Assembly: GCA_902523675.1 (NCBI GenBank) | Contig: CABZAL010000009.1 | Coordinates: 1 to 34,513 of the forward strand | Reading direction: 5' to 3' | Length of the DNA: 34,513 nt | Source: an uncultured Alphaproteobacteria bacterium | Lineage (GTDB): Bacteria > Pseudomonadota > Alphaproteobacteria > Methylaequorales > Methylaequoraceae | Shown here: one piece after another, positions 9,620 through 27,319 of the stretch | Layout: each line of letters opens with the position of its first letter | How positions within the stretch are numbered: the first letter of the stretch is position 1 | Notes under the pieces: generated by a model | The model's input: the letters and a program-made list of their open reading frames with translations, nothing else | Told to the model about the DNA's origin: nothing | The model's database searches: none | Program-made: the position numbers and the translations under genes

Positions 9620-10446
9620 TTCTTAAGAATTATCCTTTTCACCTCATTAATATCTTTTTCAGAAATTCTTTTATTAAACCAAAGGGCAAACGATTCTGCT
9701 GCCTGTCTTACTAACATACCCACTCCATTATAACTTCTCAAATTTGATTTTTTAGCTTTTTTTAAAAAATTTGTTTCTATTGGATTATAAATTAGATCAT
9801 ATACAACTGTTCTTTTTCTTAATGCACAAAAATTAAAGTTTAAATTCTCTCGTAAATTCATCCCAAAAGAGGTTGTATTTATAACTAAATCATATTTTCT
9901 TAATATTTTTTTCCTTTGCCATTTTTGTAGTGTAATTTTACAGTTAAGTGAATACAAACTAAGATTTTTCTTTAATTTTTTTGCGTTCATAACATTTCTA
10001 TTGCAAATGCAAATTTCTTTGATGGGATGTTTCAATAGTTCCAACAAAATTCCTCTAGAAGCACCCCCTGCTCCAATTGCAAACACTTTTATATTGTTTA
10101 GATTCATTTTAACTTCATGTCTTAAAGAACTGACGAAGCCCTTTCCGTCTGTATTCGCTCCCATTATTTTATTGCCCTTTACATATACAGTGTTTGCTGC
10201 TCCAATTTGTTTTACGTTTTCTTCGTAATAATCTAAAAACTTTAATATTTTTGTCTTAAAAGGCAGTGTTACGTTAAAGCCTAAACATTCACCTTTTCTG
10301 ATCATATTTATCATCGGACCTAGTTGTTTTTCTGATAAAAGTTTTTTTTCATATATAATTTTTTTATTAATTTTTTTTAACCATAAATTATGAATAATAG
10401 GAGACTTAGAATGTTTGATCGGGTTTCCTAACACAAATAGTTTCAT
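9616..10446 (-). CDS. aroE: Shikimate dehydrogenase
   Basis: AroE reduces 3-dehydroshikimate to shikimate with NADPH in aromatic amino acid synthesis. The 276-residue product has the substrate-binding NPIKHSKSP at 8-16 and NVTLPFK at 58-64 with catalytic Lys64. Asn85, NTDG at 98-101 with catalytic Asp100, and the dinucleotide loop GAGGASRG at 125-132 follow. The C-terminal GVGMLVRQAAESFALW is also typical. The ATG shares one base with the maf stop (TGATG), indicating coupled translation. Confidence 0.96.
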   Translation of the reverse strand: MKLFVLGNPIKHSKSPIIHNLWLKKINKKIIYEKKLLSEKQLGPMINMIRKGECLGFNVTLPFKTKILKFLDYYEENVKQIGAANTVYVKGNKIMGANTDGKGFVSSLRHEVKMNLNNIKVFAIGAGGASRGILLELLKHPIKEICICNRNVMNAKKLKKNLSLYSLNCKITLQKWQRKKILRKYDLVINTTSFGMNLRENLNFNFCALRKRTVVYDLIYNPIETNFLKKAKKSNLRSYNGVGMLVRQAAESFALWFNKRISEKDINEVKRIILKK

Positions 10447-11036
10447 CAGTTATACTTTTTTAATAATGGGAGAATTCTCTTTATTGGGAAACCTAAAATT
10501 GTCTCTCTATCACCTTCTATCTTTTTAATACATTTTAATTTGTCGTTTTCTATTTTGTACGATCCACTTGTTGAATAAACAATTGATTTGTTGTTTTTTA
10601 CATATGTTTCTATATCTGACGCTTGTATTTTCTTCATGTAAACTTTTGCCTTATCTTCGATTGTTTTATACCTTCCCTCCGGTGTTAAGACACATATAGC
10701 GCTTATCAATCTGTGACAATTTCCTTGTAAAAGCAATAAATTTTTAACTGCTTCTTCTTCGCTGTTCGGTTTGTTTATTACGTCGCCTTTGCATAATATG
10801 ATTTGATCGGAGCCGATGATGAGACTTTTCTGATATCTTTCTTTTATCGATTCTACCTTTTTTTGTGCCAGATATCTTGCTAGATTTTCTTTTATTTTTT
10901 TATGTTTTACTATTTCTTTTTCTTCTTCTACCGCGTGTTCTACATACTTTGCTTTTATATTATAACTTTCCAAAATTCTTCTTCTTGTCTCACTTGTGGA
11001 TGCTAATACAATTTGTGTTTTAATTGTGGAAATCAT
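10446..11036 (-). CDS. maf: Maf-like nucleotide pyrophosphatase
   Basis: Maf proteins hydrolyse non-canonical or methylated nucleoside triphosphates to monophosphates. The 196-residue product has the N-terminal motif IVLASTSETRRRIL (about 9-22, matching the usual LAS.SPRR..LL), the E-E-E helix around 37-42, and IIGSDQIILCKG in place of the common IGADTVV. The C-terminal part GSYKIE ... ILGFPIKRILPLL is also typical. It begins at the left border of the presumed oriC gap and is transcribed away from it. The choice between dTTP/UTP-type and m7GTP-type activity cannot be made by eye. Confidence 0.9.
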   Translation of the reverse strand: MISTIKTQIVLASTSETRRRILESYNIKAKYVEHAVEEEKEIVKHKKIKENLARYLAQKKVESIKERYQKSLIIGSDQIILCKGDVINKPNSEEEAVKNLLLLQGNCHRLISAICVLTPEGRYKTIEDKAKVYMKKIQASDIETYVKNNKSIVYSTSGSYKIENDKLKCIKKIEGDRETILGFPIKRILPLLKKYN

Positions 11037-11091
11037 AGGATTTTTACTATTTGTGTTCTTTTGTTCTTTTCATACACAGCATCTTATTTTT

Positions 11092-11100
11092 TTATTCACA
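11092..11100 (+). promoter_or_regulatory. DnaA box (perfect TTATTCACA)
   Basis: Exact match to TTATNCACA, lying inside the maf-hemE gap. Near matches sit on both sides at 11070-11078 (TCATACACA), 11110-11118 (minus strand, ATATACACA) and 11121-11129 (TTATCTACA). Spacing between centres is about 10 to 22 bases, suggesting a DnaA assembly platform. Confidence 0.75.
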
Positions 11101-11233
11101 CGACTATATTGTGTATATCTTTATCTACAGTTTTGTTTTATTTGTTTAAAAAGTTATCCAGTTTTTTAGTCTTAATCTGTGTAGATTTTATTTATTTATT
11201 CACTTTTTGTTATATACTTATTATCTTGTTAAC

Positions 11234-11242
11234 TGTGTATAA
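11234..11242 (-). promoter_or_regulatory. DnaA box (perfect TTATACACA on minus strand)
   Basis: Plus-strand TGTGTATAA is the exact complement of TTATACACA. It directly borders the most AT-rich part of the gap, so it may mark the edge of the unwinding element. A one-mismatch box, TTATTCACT, lies upstream at 11196-11204. Confidence 0.75.
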
Positions 11243-11278
11243 ATATATAATAAATTTATTAAACATTATTAACAGTCC

Positions 11279-11296
11279 CAACAACAACAACAACAA
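11279..11296 (+). repeat. CAA trinucleotide repeat (6 copies) in oriC
   Basis: Six uninterrupted CAA units lie between two AT-rich tracts in the presumed origin, 21 bases before the hemE ATG. It is the only such run I noticed in noncoding DNA of the window. It could be a strand-specific protein contact, part of the hemE leader, or chance slippage. No function is claimed. Confidence 0.9.
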
Positions 11297-11317
11297 TATA
11301 CATATATATTAAAAATA

Positions 11318-12346
11318 ATGTTGATAACACATAAAAAAAGTAAAAACATTTCCTGTCGCTCTGTTCCTATATGGTTTATGAGACAAGCAGGACGCTATTT
11401 GCCTGAATACCATACGTTACGAAACAAAGAGATATCATTTTTGAAAACTTGTTTTAATCCCGATATTGCAGCCGAGATTTCTCTTCAACCTATAATTCGG
11501 TTTGATTTTGATTTTATTATTTTATTTGCTGACATATTGGTAATTCCTCATGCCTTAGGGCAAAATGTTGATTTTGTAAATGGTAAGGGACCAGTGTTAG
11601 ACAAATTTGATTTAAATAGGAAAAACGGTAATTCCGATAAAGAAGCTTTAAAAATACTATCTCCAATATTTGAAACTATAAAAATTATTAAAAGTAAGTC
11701 TATCCAAAAGAAAACAATAGGATTTTGTGGAGGCCCTTTTACTGTTTTGACTTATATGATTGAACGAGGCTCATCGCGAGATCATAAAAATACATTAAAT
11801 TTCATAAAAAATAAGCCAAATCAGACAAAGTATTGGCTTAAAAAGATAACAGAAATATCAATAAAATATTTATTAAAACAAATAGAAGCTGGTGCTGATT
11901 TAATAAAAGTGTTTGATTCATGGGCAGGATTATTAAATGAAAGGGAATATGAAGAATATATTATAAAACCTAACAAAGAGATATTTGAAAGCATCAAGAA
12001 TGAAAAAGAAAAAACAAAAATTATACTTTTTCCAAGAAAATCAAAACATTTCATTGATATTTTTTTGAGAGAGATAAACTGTGACATTATATCAATAGAT
12101 CAACATCTTAGTAGGAAAAATATGGATTATTGTCGAAAAAATAAGATTACAATTCAAGGTAATTTAAATCCAGAATTGCTATTTACAGGTGGAATTAAAA
12201 TGGTGGAAGAAGTAAAAAAAATCATGGAAAAATATAAAAATAATGAACATATTTTTAATTTATCACATGGCGTTTTACCCAATACCCCATTGAGAAACGT
12301 AAAACAGGTAGTAGAACAAGTAAAGAATTATGAATTTACCAACTGA
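11318..12346 (+). CDS. hemE: Uroporphyrinogen decarboxylase
   Basis: HemE removes four carboxyl groups from uroporphyrinogen III to give coproporphyrinogen III in haem synthesis. The 342-residue product has the signature PIWFMRQAGRYLPEY at about 17-31, with the active-site arginines. LFADILVIPHALG, carrying the key Asp, and the C-terminal NLSHGVLPNTP follow. It is the first plus-strand gene right of the presumed oriC. Its promoter must therefore lie within or next to the DnaA-box region, so its expression could be affected by origin binding. The 3' end overlaps hemH by 17 bases. Confidence 0.95.
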   Translation: MLITHKKSKNISCRSVPIWFMRQAGRYLPEYHTLRNKEISFLKTCFNPDIAAEISLQPIIRFDFDFIILFADILVIPHALGQNVDFVNGKGPVLDKFDLNRKNGNSDKEALKILSPIFETIKIIKSKSIQKKTIGFCGGPFTVLTYMIERGSSRDHKNTLNFIKNKPNQTKYWLKKITEISIKYLLKQIEAGADLIKVFDSWAGLLNEREYEEYIIKPNKEIFESIKNEKEKTKIILFPRKSKHFIDIFLREINCDIISIDQHLSRKNMDYCRKNKITIQGNLNPELLFTGGIKMVEEVKKIMEKYKNNEHIFNLSHGVLPNTPLRNVKQVVEQVKNYEFTN

Positions 12347-16547: not shown

Positions 16548-18407
16548 ATGTTTCACGTGAAACAAAAATTTTATGATGTTATTATTTTGGGCGGTGGTCA
16601 CGCAGGAGTAGAAGCTGCAGCAGCTGCATCAAAAATAGGCGCAAAAACAGCGCTAATCACTTTCTCTAGAAAAGACTTGGGTGCAATGTCGTGTAACCCT
16701 GCCATGGGAGGGCTAGGAAAAGGACATTTAATTAGAGAAATTGATGCTTTAGGTGGAATTATTGGACAAGCCTCTGACATGTCTGGAATTCAATTCAGAA
16801 TGTTGAACAGAACCAAAGGTGAGGCTGTTCAAGGACCCAGAGCTCAAATTGATAGGAACAAATACAAAAAAGCGGTTTCAGGCTTGCTCAAGACCTTAAC
16901 AATTTTTGAGGATGAAATTGAAGAAATACATTTAGAAAAAAACATTAGAAAAGTTAGGTCAGTTAAGTTAAAGGAATTTGGGAATTTGAATTGTCAATCA
17001 CTAATAGTTACAACTGGAACATTTTTGAATGGGTTGATCCATTGTGGACAAAAAAGTTGGTCAGCAGGAAGACTTGGAGCAAAAGCTACGACTAAGTTAG
17101 CAAAGTTTTTTATAAAAGAGAAGTTTGTAACTCGGCGTCTAAAGACAGGAACCCCTCCAAGACTTTTAGGTAGTTCAATTGATTTTAAAAAATGTATAGA
17201 ACAAAAAGGTGATTCTCATCCAGTTCCCTTTTCTTTTTTAACTGAAGAGCTAAGATTAAAACAGAAGGCATGTTTTATTACTAAGACAAATGAAACTACC
17301 CACAAAATTATACGGTCAAATATTTACAAATCTCCCATGTATAACGGTAAAATAAAAAGCAAAGGTCCAAGATATTGTCCCTCAATTGAAGATAAAGTCC
17401 AAAGATTTAAAGATAGAATAAGCCATCAGATTTTTTTAGAACCAGAAACAGAGGCTGGGGATATAATTTATCCAAATGGAATATCTACTGCTATGCCATC
17501 TAATGTCCAAAAGAAATTTATTAGGAGCATAAATGGCTTAGAAGAAGCTCAAATTTTAAAAGATGGTTATGCTATAGAATACGACACAATTGATAGCAAA
17601 GAATTAAAAAATACCTATGAAACAAAAAAAATTGAAGGATTATATTTGGCAGGACAGATAAACGGATCCACTGGATATGAGGAAGCTGCAGGACAAGGAT
17701 TATTAGCAGGCATAAATGCTGCTAACAAAGTGTTAGGAAAAAAAAGTTTTGTTTTGGGAAGATCAGATGCATATCTAGGCGTACTTACAAGTGATCTTAT
17801 GAAAGGAGGGTTAGTTGAACCATACAGGATGTTTACTTCTAGAGCAGAATATAGATTAACTTTAAGGGCAGATAATGCAGATTACAGATTGACTGACAAA
17901 GCAATAAATTTGGGTTTAGCTTGTAAAGATCGCTCGAGAAAATGGATTAAGAAAAAGAAAGCGTTGGCGGCAGGAACTAAACTATTAAGACAAAACTATG
18001 CGACCCCTAATAAAATAAAAGCTGCAGGGCTGGATATAAACCAAGACGGTAAAAAAAGAAGCGCGTATGAAGTTTTAGGATATAATAACAGTAATTGGCA
18101 ATTAATCATCTCGATTTGGCCACAATTAAAAAAAGTAAACATATCAGAAAAAGAAAAAGAGCAAATAAGAATTACGGCTTTCTATGAAAAGTATGTGGAG
18201 AGACAAATGGGAGAGATAGAAGAATTAAAAAAAGAATCCGGATTAAAATTTAAAAGTAATTTTAATGCAAAAGATTGCGCTGGGCTATCTAATGAAGTTA
18301 AAGAGATATTATTAAAAAATTCACCTAAAACTCTTGGAGAAGCTTCTTTATTGCCAGGAATGACTCCTTCAGCCGCCTCTTTGTTACTGAAGCACACAAA
18401 GAAATAA
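16548..18407 (+). CDS. mnmG: tRNA uridine-5-carboxymethylaminomethyl modification enzyme MnmG
   Basis: MnmG (GidA) is the FAD and NADH enzyme that, with MnmE, adds the carboxymethylaminomethyl group to U34. The 619-residue product has the FAD motif GGGHAGVEAA from residue 15, the SCNPAMGGLGKGHLIREIDALGG block, the CSxE-like and KTGTPPRL segments, GQINGSTGYEEAAGQG, and the C-terminal helical domain ending TPSAASLLLKHTKK. The first residues MFHVKQ are dictated by a perfect parS site that begins inside the start codon. The zero-base gap from mnmE supports this ATG. No Shine-Dalgarno is visible. Confidence 0.97.
   Translation: MFHVKQKFYDVIILGGGHAGVEAAAAASKIGAKTALITFSRKDLGAMSCNPAMGGLGKGHLIREIDALGGIIGQASDMSGIQFRMLNRTKGEAVQGPRAQIDRNKYKKAVSGLLKTLTIFEDEIEEIHLEKNIRKVRSVKLKEFGNLNCQSLIVTTGTFLNGLIHCGQKSWSAGRLGAKATTKLAKFFIKEKFVTRRLKTGTPPRLLGSSIDFKKCIEQKGDSHPVPFSFLTEELRLKQKACFITKTNETTHKIIRSNIYKSPMYNGKIKSKGPRYCPSIEDKVQRFKDRISHQIFLEPETEAGDIIYPNGISTAMPSNVQKKFIRSINGLEEAQILKDGYAIEYDTIDSKELKNTYETKKIEGLYLAGQINGSTGYEEAAGQGLLAGINAANKVLGKKSFVLGRSDAYLGVLTSDLMKGGLVEPYRMFTSRAEYRLTLRADNADYRLTDKAINLGLACKDRSRKWIKKKKALAAGTKLLRQNYATPNKIKAAGLDINQDGKKRSAYEVLGYNNSNWQLIISIWPQLKKVNISEKEKEQIRITAFYEKYVERQMGEIEELKKESGLKFKSNFNAKDCAGLSNEVKEILLKNSPKTLGEASLLPGMTPSAASLLLKHTKK
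16549..16564. promoter_or_regulatory. parS: parS centromere site 1 (perfect 16-bp palindrome)
   Basis: TGTTTCACGTGAAACA is the canonical ParB-binding parS palindrome, here without a mismatch. It starts at the T of the mnmG ATG and encodes the residues after Met (FHVKQ). It lies about 5.3 kb from the presumed oriC and 2.5 kb upstream of parA, as expected for chromosomal parS sites. Confidence 0.95.
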
Positions 18408-18410
18408 GAA

Positions 18411-19082
18411 GTGGCTGAGGCTTTTCGTCAAAAAGAAGCATTTAAATCAACATACAATGTTTCACGTGAAACAATGAGAAAATTTGAGAAATATGAAGAT
18501 ATGTTGAAAGACTCGCAAAAAAAATTTAATCTAATTGGAAAAAGTACTGAGAATAAAATATGGGCACGACATTTTTATGATTCAGCTTTTTCATGCAAGT
18601 TTGTGTTGGAAATAATTGGTAGAACTAAGAAAAAAAGGTTTAGTTTAGTAGATGTAGGCTCTGGAGCAGGCTTTCCGGGTTTGGTAATTGCACTGATGTG
18701 CCAAGAAATTTCCAATGTTTCGTTCACCCTTATAGAATCAAACAAAAAAAAGGCTTTTTTTCTAGAAAGTATAGTTTCTCTTCTTGGGCTAAAAGTAAAA
18801 GTATTAAATAGTAGGGTGGAAGAACAAAAAAAGAAGTTTGATCTCATTACAGCTCGTGCAGTCGCTCCACTCAATAAGTTGGCAAAGTTAGTAAGTAAAA
18901 TTTCAAAAAAAGATTCTATTTTACTTGCATTCAAAGGACAGAGCTGGGAGGAAGAAGTTAGATTATTAAAAAAAGAGTGGAATTATAAAGGTTTAATTGT
19001 TAAAAATAATATTGATCTTGAAAAGTCTAGAGGTGTGTTATTGTTAATCGATTCTGTCTCAAAAAAAAGTAGGCCCAAATGA
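18411..19082 (+). CDS. rsmG: 16S rRNA (guanine527-N7) methyltransferase RsmG
   Basis: RsmG (GidB) methylates G527 of 16S rRNA using SAM. The 223-residue product has the N-terminal block YNVSRETMRKFEKYEDMLK, the substrate segment FNLIGKST and WARHFYDS, and the SAM-binding VGSGAGFPG at 82-90. The later DLITARAVAPL block is also typical. The start is GTG at 18411, 3 bases after the mnmG stop. The next ATG at 18474 would cut off the conserved NVSRET, so the GTG is preferred. The end overlaps parA by 4 bases. A second parS lies in the NVSRET codons. Confidence 0.94.
   Translation: MAEAFRQKEAFKSTYNVSRETMRKFEKYEDMLKDSQKKFNLIGKSTENKIWARHFYDSAFSCKFVLEIIGRTKKKRFSLVDVGSGAGFPGLVIALMCQEISNVSFTLIESNKKKAFFLESIVSLLGLKVKVLNSRVEEQKKKFDLITARAVAPLNKLAKLVSKISKKDSILLAFKGQSWEEEVRLLKKEWNYKGLIVKNNIDLEKSRGVLLLIDSVSKKSRPK
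18458..18473. promoter_or_regulatory. parS: parS centromere site 2 (perfect 16-bp palindrome)
   Basis: A second exact TGTTTCACGTGAAACA, inside rsmG codons 16-21 (Asn-Val-Ser-Arg-Glu-Thr). It lies 1.9 kb from the first parS and about 0.6 kb before parA. The NVSRET peptide is widely conserved in alphaproteobacterial RsmG, which fits a long-standing double use of these codons. Confidence 0.95.
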
Positions 19083-19870
19083 GAACAGTTTTTTCAATTG
19101 TTAACCAAAAAGGTGGAGTGGGTAAAACTACTACAGCTATTAACTTGGCCACTGCACTTTCAATAAGTGGAAAATCCTGTTTGGTAATAGATTTAGATCC
19201 ACAAGGCAATGCAAGTACTGGATTTTCGATAACATCTGAGCAGAGAACACCTGGTTCTTATGAAGTTTTACTGCAGAAATGTAGTATTTTAGATGTCATC
19301 AGACCAACAGAAGTTTCAGGCTTAGGTCTTATTCCATCTAGAGTTGAGCTTTCTAACGTAGAGCAAGAACTAATAAAATTTCAGGATAGAGAGTTTTTAC
19401 TCAAAAAAGCCATTGATTCACTCCCAGATAGATATGATTCAGTTATTATCGACTGCCCTCCAGGTTTAGGTTTTTTAACAACAAATGCCCTAGTTGCCTC
19501 TGACAAAGTGTTAATTCCATTACAGTGTGAATTTTACGCACTTGAGGGTTTAAGCCAAATTTTGAGAGTAATTAAAAAGGTAAAATTAGAACTAAACTCT
19601 AATTTAAATCTGGATGGAATATTATTAACAATGTATGATCCTAGAAATAAATTAAGTTTTCAGGTAGAGGAAGATGTGAGAGAGGTCATGGGGTCGATAG
19701 TATACAAAACTATCATTCCTAGAAATATAAAAATTTCAGAATCTCCTTCACATGGAAAACCTGTTTTATTATACGACCACAAATGTATTGGATCAGAGGC
19801 ATATGTTAATTTAGCTGCAGAAGTTCTCAAAAGAGGAAGTTTTGGTGGACTTGCAAAAAGTAAAAGATAA
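19079..19870 (+). CDS. parA: Chromosome partitioning ATPase ParA
   Basis: ParA (Soj) is the Walker ATPase that moves ParB-parS complexes across the nucleoid. The 263-residue product has the deviant Walker A KGGVGKTT at 11-18 with the signature lysine. VIDLDPQGNASTG (about 39-51) and the switch IIDCPPGLGFLTTNAL follow. It lacks the N-terminal DNA-binding extension of plasmid type Ia ParA, so it is a chromosomal type. The ATG overlaps the rsmG stop by 4 bases. Confidence 0.97.
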   Translation: MRTVFSIVNQKGGVGKTTTAINLATALSISGKSCLVIDLDPQGNASTGFSITSEQRTPGSYEVLLQKCSILDVIRPTEVSGLGLIPSRVELSNVEQELIKFQDREFLLKKAIDSLPDRYDSVIIDCPPGLGFLTTNALVASDKVLIPLQCEFYALEGLSQILRVIKKVKLELNSNLNLDGILLTMYDPRNKLSFQVEEDVREVMGSIVYKTIIPRNIKISESPSHGKPVLLYDHKCIGSEAYVNLAAEVLKRGSFGGLAKSKR

Positions 19871-19882
19871 GGAGTTTAGTCG

Positions 19883-20857
19883 ATGAAAAAAAAAATAAAA
19901 GCAAAAAGAAAGTTAGGAATGGGATTGTCATCATTACTGGTTGAAGACGAGGCACTTTCAATGATCGTAAAAAAGCAAGGAAGGCCAGCAAAAAAAATAT
20001 TACCAGGAAATTACAAAGACAATTTAAAAAAATATGAACTTAAACCCAAGAAAGGTGTTTCCCAAGATGTAGTCCCTACTCACATCTTAGTTCCTGGAAA
20101 GTTTCAGCCAAGAAAAGATTTTAATTCTCAGGAGATTGAAGAGCTTTCAGAATCTATAAAAGAAAATGGAATTTTACAACCATTACTTGTTAGACCACTT
20201 AATACACGTGGGAAAAGTTTTGAAATTATAGCTGGAGAAAGAAGATGGAGAGCAGCTCAAGTGGCAAATCTTCACGAGGTACCAGTAATAGTAAGATCCT
20301 TTGATGATGAGACAGCATTGGGAGTGGCAATGGTAGAAAATTTGCAAAGATCAGATTTAAACTTAATCGAAGAAGCTGACGGGTACAGACTGCTAATGAA
20401 TAAATTTCAATATACTCAAGAAAAACTCTCTTCTCATTTAGGAAAAAGTCGAAGTCATGTAGCTAATGTATTAAGACTTCTTTCTTTATCAAAAAAAATA
20501 AAAAACCATCTTATTCATGGAGATCTTACTTACGGTCACGTTAGATCTCTTTTATCCCTTTCTGAAGATGATGCTAACCAAGTTGCATCACAAGCAATTG
20601 ACAAAGGTATGAGCGTTAGGGAAATTGAAAAATTTGTTAAAAAGCTTAAGAATGTTAGCATTATCGTTAAAAATACTAAAACTTATTGCTCTGACGATCC
20701 TAATATAGAATATTTAGAAAAAGAATTAACAGTTCTACTTGGATTGAAAGTAACAATTAAAAATAATACGAAAAATAAGGGTTATCTTTCAATACATTAT
20801 AACAGTTTAGATCAATTGGATCCAATTATCGACAAGTTAAAATGGAGACCAAAGTAA
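19883..20857 (+). CDS. parB: Chromosome partitioning protein ParB
   Basis: ParB is the CTP-dependent clamp that loads at parS. The 324-residue product has an N-terminal ParA-contact peptide, KRKLGMGLSSLL (9-20). The CTPase/N domain has GERRWRA at 118-124 and ENLQR at 152-156. A helix-turn-helix at about 176-200 (YTQEKLSSHLGKSRSHVANVLRLL) reads parS, and a C-terminal dimerisation region ends DPIIDKLKWRPK. A good AAGGAG overlaps the parA stop 8 bases before the ATG. Both presumed targets (16549 and 18458) lie upstream within the same gene string. Confidence 0.97.
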   Translation: MKKKIKAKRKLGMGLSSLLVEDEALSMIVKKQGRPAKKILPGNYKDNLKKYELKPKKGVSQDVVPTHILVPGKFQPRKDFNSQEIEELSESIKENGILQPLLVRPLNTRGKSFEIIAGERRWRAAQVANLHEVPVIVRSFDDETALGVAMVENLQRSDLNLIEEADGYRLLMNKFQYTQEKLSSHLGKSRSHVANVLRLLSLSKKIKNHLIHGDLTYGHVRSLLSLSEDDANQVASQAIDKGMSVREIEKFVKKLKNVSIIVKNTKTYCSDDPNIEYLEKELTVLLGLKVTIKNNTKNKGYLSIHYNSLDQLDPIIDKLKWRPK

Positions 20858-25450: not shown

Positions 25451-26147
25451 GAGCTCTTCTACAAAAAAAATTGTTTTTAATTATAACAAAGTTTGCAAAG
25501 AAATAAGACATTTTGAAAATTTTTATAAAAGAAAACAAAATAGTGTGAATTTAATTGTTGTCTCTAAGACTTTCGCAGAGGAAAAAATTTCTCCTATAAT
25601 TATAAAAGGACATAAAGATTTTGGTGAAAATAAAGTTCAAGAGGGTTCTGAAAAATGGAAGGATATTAAAAAAATATATTCAGATATAAAACTTCACCTT
25701 ATTGGTCCTTTGCAATCCAACAAGGTAAATCTTGCCTTGAAAACTTTTGATTGTATCCATACGATCGATAGAAAGAAAATTGCAAAAAAAATTAATGATT
25801 CTATAGAAAACAATTTTCAAGCTAACTTTAAAAAATTTACTTTTTTTATTCAAATAAATACTGGTTCAGAACCTCAAAAATCAGGAGTCAAACTATCCGA
25901 AGTTGATGAATTTTATAAATGGTGTGTAAATGAAACAAATCTAAAAATAATTGGTTTAATGTGCATACCTCCAATCAATGAACCTCCTAAAACACATTTT
26001 AGCATTATCAAAGAACTAGCAAGAAAATACGATTTGCCTCATTTAAGTATGGGTATGAGTAACGATTATGCAGAAGCGATTGAATGTGGCTCAACTTTCC
26101 TAAGGCTTGGTTCAGTAATTTTTGGAAAGCGCGATAAAACTATTTAA
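25449..26147 (+). CDS. PLP homeostasis protein, YggS/PROSC family
   Basis: The 232-residue product is a fold-type III PLP-binding barrel that helps control free pyridoxal phosphate and amino acid pools. The PLP lysine is Lys40 in LIVVSKTF. GENKVQEGSEKW, LHLIGPLQSNKVNLAL and the C-terminal LSMGMSNDYAEAIECGSTFLRLGSVIFG are all family landmarks. Length is normal. The ATG overlaps the divergent ThiE-like start, and the 3' end overlaps the L,D-transpeptidase gene by 8 bases. Its promoter must therefore be inside the neighbour. Confidence 0.93.
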   Translation: MSSSTKKIVFNYNKVCKEIRHFENFYKRKQNSVNLIVVSKTFAEEKISPIIIKGHKDFGENKVQEGSEKWKDIKKIYSDIKLHLIGPLQSNKVNLALKTFDCIHTIDRKKIAKKINDSIENNFQANFKKFTFFIQINTGSEPQKSGVKLSEVDEFYKWCVNETNLKIIGLMCIPPINEPPKTHFSIIKELARKYDLPHLSMGMSNDYAEAIECGSTFLRLGSVIFGKRDKTI

Positions 26148-26652
26148 TTATAATTTTACAAGATTTAGTAAGAGTTTTAAGAATTTCTATAAATTCAAGC
26201 TTATTAATAGCGATGCATCCATCTGTAAACTTATTTTTCTTTTCTTTGCAATGGAGAAATATTGCACTTCCTCTAAATTTTTTTGTTAGCTCTGTATTGT
26301 AGTTTAAAACTGCAATAAGATCATAACAATTATCACTTCGAAACATCTTTTCGTGATCGAAACCGCAAGGTTTTTTCCTTATTTGATTATACTGAATATC
26401 TTTAGAGTCAGTGGACCACACGGTTGATTGAATTATGGGAATTTTTTTAAAATTGCATTTTAAATAATTAAATTTATCTTTTCGATACAAAATATAATTT
26501 ATTCGAAATATTCCCCTTGGTGTCTTTTTGTCTCCTTCTCTTGTTTTTTTCCCAATACCATTTTTGCCAATAAAACAGTTGAAAACTCTTTTATTAAAAA
26601 TAAAATCTGCTTTATAATTATTTTTAGATTTAATTATTATATTGAAAGGCAT
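26140..26652 (-). CDS. L,D-transpeptidase (YkuD) family protein
   Basis: YkuD enzymes form 3-3 peptidoglycan cross-links or attach proteins to the wall. The 170-residue form has the family block GKNGIGKKTREGDKKTPRG (29-47), His134 in IFLHCKE, and the catalytic Cys146 in TDGCIAI, so the active site looks complete. No signal peptide is seen, which matches a class of short alphaproteobacterial YkuD proteins. The open frame extends 77 codons further upstream, but that part would be fully antisense to the regulator gene and looks unstructured. I therefore start at the ATG at 26652, which overlaps the divergent regulator's ATG in one CATG. Confidence 0.85.
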   Translation of the reverse strand: MPFNIIIKSKNNYKADFIFNKRVFNCFIGKNGIGKKTREGDKKTPRGIFRINYILYRKDKFNYLKCNFKKIPIIQSTVWSTDSKDIQYNQIRKKPCGFDHEKMFRSDNCYDLIAVLNYNTELTKKFRGSAIFLHCKEKKNKFTDGCIAINKLEFIEILKTLTKSCKIIIK

Positions 26653-27319
26653 GATAAATTTAAGAAAACTAATAAATATAGTATTTATAACAGAAAATAA
26701 TATTATTTTTAATGATCTTAAATTAATATTAAATAACTTTTTTGGAATCACATGCAAGCAAATAAATGATTTTAGAGATTTGGATCTAAATATTTTTGAC
26801 AATAAGTTTCCTCCTATAATTTTTATGTCCGATGAAAATAGAAATTTAAAAAAAAATCTTTTAGATCTACCCAAAAAAATCAAGGATGATAACCACTTTT
26901 TTTTGTTTTCAGAAAAAAAGATACATGTCCCATTTATTACAAATATTCAGGTTCCTTTTAAGATTAATGTCTTAATTAATGAACTGAAAAGAATATCTAA
27001 TATAAAGTTGAAAAAATCTTTCGAGTTTAAAAGTTCTAACTATGAATATTCTTTTGATGAGGCATCTTTCACGTCAAAATTTAATAAAAAAAAAATACAC
27101 CTAACTGAAATGGAGAATAAACTGGTAAATTTCTTACTAACTTCAAAAAAGGGTGTAAATAAAAAACATATCCTATCTGTAGTGTGGGGTTATTCAAAGG
27201 AATTAAATACTCATACATTAGAGTCACTTATATACAGATTGAGAAAGAAGATTGAATTTGATCCTCAAGATCCAAAAATTTTAATTTACGAAAAAAATAA
27301 ATATTTCATGAAATTATAA
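26651..27319 (+). CDS. OmpR/PhoB-type response regulator with degenerate receiver
   Basis: The 222-residue product has a C-terminal winged-helix domain of OmpR type (about 130-222). Its landmarks are IHLTEMENKLVNFLLTSKKGVNKKHILSVVWGY followed by NTHTLESLIYRLRKKIEFDP. The N-terminal half has the length and hydrophobic strand pattern of a receiver (INIVFITENN, PIIFMSDENR, FFLFSEKK, IQVPFKINVLINEL). The usual acidic pocket, the phospho-accepting Asp in a LLD..MP context, and the conserved Lys of the KPF motif are not evident. It may act without phosphorylation. No kinase gene is nearby. An in-frame TTG lies 3 codons upstream; I chose the ATG at 26651. The end overlaps xth by 6 bases. Confidence 0.82.
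   Translation: MINLRKLINIVFITENNIIFNDLKLILNNFFGITCKQINDFRDLDLNIFDNKFPPIIFMSDENRNLKKNLLDLPKKIKDDNHFFLFSEKKIHVPFITNIQVPFKINVLINELKRISNIKLKKSFEFKSSNYEYSFDEASFTSKFNKKKIHLTEMENKLVNFLLTSKKGVNKKHILSVVWGYSKELNTHTLESLIYRLRKKIEFDPQDPKILIYEKNKYFMKL

Follow-up and report, generated by a model that had tools for sequence, protein, structure and literature searches.

A hemE-adjacent putative replication origin with a conserved CAA triplet array in an uncultured alphaproteobacterial family

The intergenic gap between maf and hemE in this genome raises the question of whether it is the chromosomal replication origin and, if so, by which element it could be opened. The window, meaning the whole stretch of 34,513 nucleotides (34.5 kb) that was analyzed, is a contig of a 1.10-Mb genome that is 74% complete and consists of 48 contigs. 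The preliminary description had read the gap as a likely oriC, next to hemE as in Caulobacter. This reading was upheld: DnaA boxes are clustered in the gap, the gap and its boxes are kept across the family, parS and parAB lie nearby, and a hemE-adjacent origin has been established experimentally in Caulobacter (PMC1914354). Judged from sequence, the maf/hemE gap is very probably the chromosomal oriC, of the hemE type of alphaproteobacterial origin. The site was graded separately from the DnaA-trio mechanism proposed below: the site is well supported, whereas the mechanism is one that we infer. Coordinates are collected in Table 1.

Table 1. Features of the maf/hemE gap and its surroundings (window positions).
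Feature	Position	Strand	Remarks
maf	10446..11036	-	Pfam PF02545
putative oriC	11037..11317	.	281-bp maf(-)/hemE(+) intergenic gap, 79% A+T; same gap across relatives
DnaA box-like TCATACACA, one mismatch	11070..11078	+	sister species has TTATGCACA, perfect
perfect DnaA box TTATTCACA	11092..11100	+	perfect at same place in sister species
DnaA box-like ATATACACA, one mismatch	11110..11118	-	box search
DnaA box-like TTATCTACA, one mismatch	11121..11129	+	identical in sister species
DnaA box-like TTATTCACT, one mismatch	11196..11204	+	box search
perfect DnaA box TTATACACA	11234..11242	-	perfect in sister species too
box TTATTAACA, one mismatch, putative anchor of left opening module	11266..11274	+	4 bp 5' of CAA array; identical in sister species
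spacer GTCC	11275..11278	+	between box 11266-11274 and CAA array
(CAA)6 array, putative noncanonical DnaA-trios	11279..11296	+	3'-GTT-5' on minus strand; 5 copies in most relatives
putative unwinding element	11297..11317	.	AT-only except one C
weak right-hand trio-like run TAAAAATAA	11310..11318	+	TAG repeats here in most of family
hemE	11318..12346	+	Pfam PF01208; conserved part from about residue 15
box-like TTATCAACA, one mismatch	11319..11327	-	spans annotated hemE start
parS, perfect TGTTTCACGTGAAACA	16549..16564	+	within first codons of mnmG
parS, perfect TGTTTCACGTGAAACA	18458..18473	+	within rsmG
parA (19079-19870), parB (19883-20857)	19079..20857	+	names from translations

All six boxes that had been described before (two perfect, four with one mismatch) were recovered at the same coordinates, and two further one-mismatch boxes were found, at 11266-11274 (+) and 11319-11327 (-). 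The two perfect TTATNCACA boxes of the gap are the sole perfect ones in the window, against a mean of 0.07 in shuffled gaps (P=0.003; reached in 0.3% of 3,000 dinucleotide shuffles). Sites with at most one mismatch number seven in the gap, compared with a shuffle mean of 1.1, and none of the 3,000 dinucleotide shuffles reached seven. Neither count was matched by any other 281-bp stretch in the window. Searches by simple consensus found no CtrA-type or IHF-type site in the gap, and over the 29 family gaps neither type was enriched by the same simple consensus (CtrA-type, 12 versus 7.6±3.5 in shuffles; IHF-type, 1 versus 1.8±1.4). GANTC-type sites likewise showed no enrichment in the gaps when compared with shuffles.

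Conservation of the boxes in relatives had been proposed as a check, and the box-rich gap was indeed kept throughout the family. In every one of the 29 family genomes that allowed maf and hemE both to be located, maf(-) and hemE(+) diverge across 274-323 bp, although hemE identity within the family falls to 47%. The family gaps hold 12 perfect boxes in 8.5 kb versus 6 in 107 kb of flanks; relaxed boxes (TTWTNMACA) occur 95 times in the 29 gaps, at least once in each, versus 14.5±4.0 in shuffles. The family genomes share ancestry, so these counts are not independent and the number of genera is the safer count. The nearest relative compared was the single-cell genome AG-337-E20, whose hemE is 85% identical. 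Between the window and its sister species the boxes and the CAA array are 91% identical, compared with 77% for the remaining gap.

The surroundings of the gap were also compared with what had been claimed. The placement of parS and parAB 5-9 kb away was confirmed, with two perfect parS sites and both partition genes (Table 1). Both parS palindromes are located inside coding sequence, one right at the start of mnmG (MFHVKQ) and one early in rsmG (NVSRETM). Gene direction does flip at the gap, as reported. Counted from the open reading frame (ORF) list of the 34.5-kb window, nine consecutive plus-strand genes do follow the gap on the right; on the left 13 of 16 genes, rather than 14 of 17, are on the minus strand, and directions are mixed again from 20862. 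Farther along the window two long ORFs, 26140-26883 (-) and 26642-27319 (+), overlap by 242 bp on opposite strands; in Pfam one matches the YkuD L,D-transpeptidase family and the other the C-terminal domain of response regulators. Both start with TTG, so at least one of the two starts is probably set too far upstream.

The gap resembles the Caulobacter-type oriC (Cori, and the predictions for Rickettsia and Wolbachia) in being hemE-adjacent, AT-rich and furnished with a DnaA-box cluster (PMC1914354). It differs in its other flank, which is maf in the window and in 29/29 family genomes, not COG1806 or COG1253; the gene flank opposite hemE was already known to vary among alphaproteobacterial origins (PMC1914354). 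It also differs in having neither a CtrA nor an IHF site, and in its CAA array, of which no mention was found in the part of the Caulobacter-type description that was available (PMC1914354).

This array, overlooked by the preliminary description, is the most conserved element of the gap: in the alignment of the 29 gaps the strongest conservation falls on the CAA array near hemE, not on a box. The exact 16-mer ACAACAACAACAACAA was found in 21 family genomes, as a single copy in each, and every copy is a short way upstream of hemE. The distance from the array to a DnaA box is restricted. In 20/30 genomes (6 genera) a box of no more than two mismatches precedes the array by exactly 12 bp, and in four more (3 genera) by 4 bp, including the window, where the box has one mismatch; any other distance from 0 to 59 bp was seen in at most three genomes each (n=30). 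With distances of 0-16 bp pooled, such a box was present in 25/30 family genomes versus 9 in the reversed control, and in one relative it is a perfect TTATCCACA at 12 bp. Substitutions within the family arrays all fall on the centre base (5/5), giving CTA four times and CCA once, and the complement of CTA is the canonical GAT. In the family the array is situated within about 20-75 bp of hemE on its upstream side, inside what is likely the 5' leader of this gene. In the literature that was searched, no report connecting CAACAACAA with DnaA and a replication origin was found.

A triplet array beside a DnaA box recalls the DnaA-trios of the basal unwinding system (BUS) of Bacillus subtilis. In a survey of these elements, the spacer between box and trios peaked at 10-13 bp, and at least three trios with a central adenine (NAN) were demanded; no trios were found in 15% of genomes, for which the authors suspected deviants without the middle adenine (PMC8287927). 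The left array here contains no such run of at least three NAN trios: it reads (TTG)n on the trio strand, with no A. The presence of a CAA array where other bacteria keep DnaA-trios suggests a variant of the opening code.

Whether such triplets extend beyond the family was examined in DNA upstream of hemE from 79 other alphaproteobacterial genomes, nearly all of different families. Four or more consecutive CNA triplets were found in 18/79 of them, versus 5 for the mirrored ANC pattern and 0.66 in shuffles. Among CNA runs of at least three, 24/38 were preceded within 20 bp by a CACA-type box, compared with 1/28 in reversed sequence. The best 19 examples from the class resemble TTCACAGGGAT-CTACAACAACAACAA-AT-rich; their centres on the trio strand are A (36), T (30) and G (13), and in these other families the module is seen as C[T/A/C]A runs. 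The CNA run lies 50-184 bp (in one case 368 bp) from the hemE match, yet stays beside the DnaA box. In three Pelagibacteraceae genomes, the region upstream of hemE holds a box-like TTATTAACA, then ATA/CTA triplets and, after these, AT-rich sequence, probably the version of this module used in SAR11. The region upstream of hemE in the Rickettsiales MAG DJN.22 is densely filled with copies of TGTTGAAAA/TTTTCAACA, perhaps a divergent type of DnaA box.

In B. subtilis the centre base of the trio is held by Asn187 of DnaA, and T or G at the centre impairs opening (PMC10721633), a result that speaks against a trio role for the array. The residue equivalent to 187 was Tyr in every alphaproteobacterial DnaA read, and Gln, Ala or Thr in other Pseudomonadota. 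Strict covariation of this residue with the trio centre is weakened by the Gln, Ala and Thr of the latter. Tyr at this position fits an altered reading of the centre base, although it is not proof of it. Because all substitutions in the family fall on the centre base and CNA runs occur class-wide, a relaxed trio centre is favoured. Overall, the box, array and AT-rich stretch are likely, with a fair measure of doubt, to form a noncanonical trio module that is the opening element of oriC, with DnaA contacting the array.

Opening by such a module would proceed in an order that we infer as follows. DnaA would bind the box cluster (11070-11274), and a DnaA-ATP filament would then extend from the box at 11266-11274 along the minus strand of (CAA)n, with one protomer per triplet, and would open the AT tract at 11297-11317. 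The array would thus serve as 3'-GNT-5' trios with a relaxed centre, nearly fixed as GTT in this family. The exact opening point is a prediction, since the 36-bp stretch with the lowest stability in the gap begins at 11237. The proposed module is similar to the B. subtilis BUS in its order of a box, a 12-bp (or 4-bp) spacer and a triplet array beside an AT-rich stretch, and most family members moreover have canonical TAG trios on the hemE side. It is unlike BUS in that adenine is absent from the would-be trio strand of the main array (3'-GTT-5'), and in that the centre-base reader is Asn187 there and Tyr in every alphaproteobacterial DnaA read. In the Thermotoga maritima eTrio, too, the key single-strand motif of the unwinding element is a perfect triplet repeat of short length (PMC10316083); it has three TAG repeats, compared with CAA/TTG here, and its DnaA box differs.

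A serious rival for the array keeps the gap as oriC and takes the minus strand TTGTTGTTG as a single-strand recruitment motif of the E. coli type (TTGT/TTATT), or as a landing site of some other protein, for instance a helicase loader. In the E. coli unwinding element (DUE), DnaA binds the motifs TTGT and TTATT (PMC10316083); on its minus strand the array consists of overlapping TTGT copies, and opening could instead fall to the TAG trios on the right. Unlike the DUE, however, the gap has no IHF-type site that we found, and the repeat is triplet-periodic, with its distance to a DnaA box fixed. This distance of 12 or 4 bp is as for trios. Moreover, the substitutions and the relatives keep the triplet pattern CNA, including CTA, which is the complement of canonical GAT and breaks TTGT. 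This rival is rather unlikely, though it deserves more weight than the alternatives that follow.

The location of the array in the likely hemE leader invites another explanation, in which the two repeats, CAA and TAG, act in the leader RNA to control hemE translation with no role in replication, and the box cluster alone marks the origin. The short distance of the array from hemE in the family would suit this, as would TAGTAG, which often runs right up to the likely hemE start codon. We consider it improbable, because in other families the CNA run varies in its distance to hemE and still adjoins a DnaA box, the exact repeat occurs nowhere else in the 21 family genomes, and the fixed box distance would be left unexplained. 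The distance between CAA and TAG is not in one frame, which argues against a leader peptide; a peptide of CAA codons ending at TAG was rejected since this frame is not kept. Rfam gave no match. The stops reported inside hemE of two family genomes probably come from a match extended upstream through the TAG run.

The position of the origin was further examined by GC skew. Because the 48 contigs of this genome are unordered, its own cumulative skew is meaningless, and skew was computed on long contigs of relatives. Along a 364-kb contig from the sister species, the raw cumulative minimum falls at 264593, 49 bp inside hemE (264544), and dnaA (183875) is 80 kb away from it. In contigs of two other relatives, the raw minima are 8 kb and 28 kb off hemE. 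When skew at fourfold-degenerate sites was split by gene strand, the relatives' contigs showed no consistent difference between the two sides, indicating that the raw minimum mainly reflects gene direction. The skew minimum expected at the gap was therefore seen in the raw data of the sister contig and lost after the gene-strand split; the raw minimum is consistent with an origin at hemE, and not decisive. A true origin elsewhere, for example at dnaA, with the box cluster being a regulatory or DnaA-titrating site, would suit a corrected skew that gives no information on origin position, but is very improbable given that three relatives have dnaA and hemE on one contig at a distance of 80-91 kb, that the sister contig has its raw minimum at hemE and not at dnaA, and that Caulobacter offers an experimental precedent for an origin beside hemE (PMC1914354).

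The proposed trio module has a possible counterpart on the hemE side. Most family members carry, beyond the AT-rich stretch, plus-strand TAG repeats and then a minus-strand box; the right side of the window has TAA-AAA-TAA only, where most relatives have TAG runs. The minus-strand box has one mismatch in 18/26 family members with a clear TAG run, a count confounded by coding constraint since the box lies partly within hemE codons. In their orientation the TAG repeats and this box would form a canonical second module directed towards the CAA module; in the window this second module is degenerate. The composite CAACAACAA-TATATA-TAGTAG was found in 6/385 genomes of the class, five times at hemE in three families, and not at all (0) in the reversed control; the sixth match, away from hemE, is probably due to chance. 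A single DnaA filament across the CAA and TAG arrays is unlikely, because their spacing modulo 3 has no fixed phase (6/13/11 for remainders 0/1/2). A combined scheme, in which alphaproteobacteria use a relaxed 3'-GNT-5' code with a Tyr187-type DnaA reader and this family has two convergent box-trio modules on opposite strands, is proposed only tentatively. That there are two convergent modules that would load helicase in a strand-specific manner is less likely than not.

These results place the probable origin of an uncultured, streamlined marine lineage. The locus and its relatives provide a concrete, testable candidate for the suspected deviant trios, with the same geometry and a relaxed centre base. 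If the two-module arrangement is true, it could place one DnaA filament, and hence one helicase-loading event, on each strand, and such a two-sided opening region would bear on how the two helicases are loaded.
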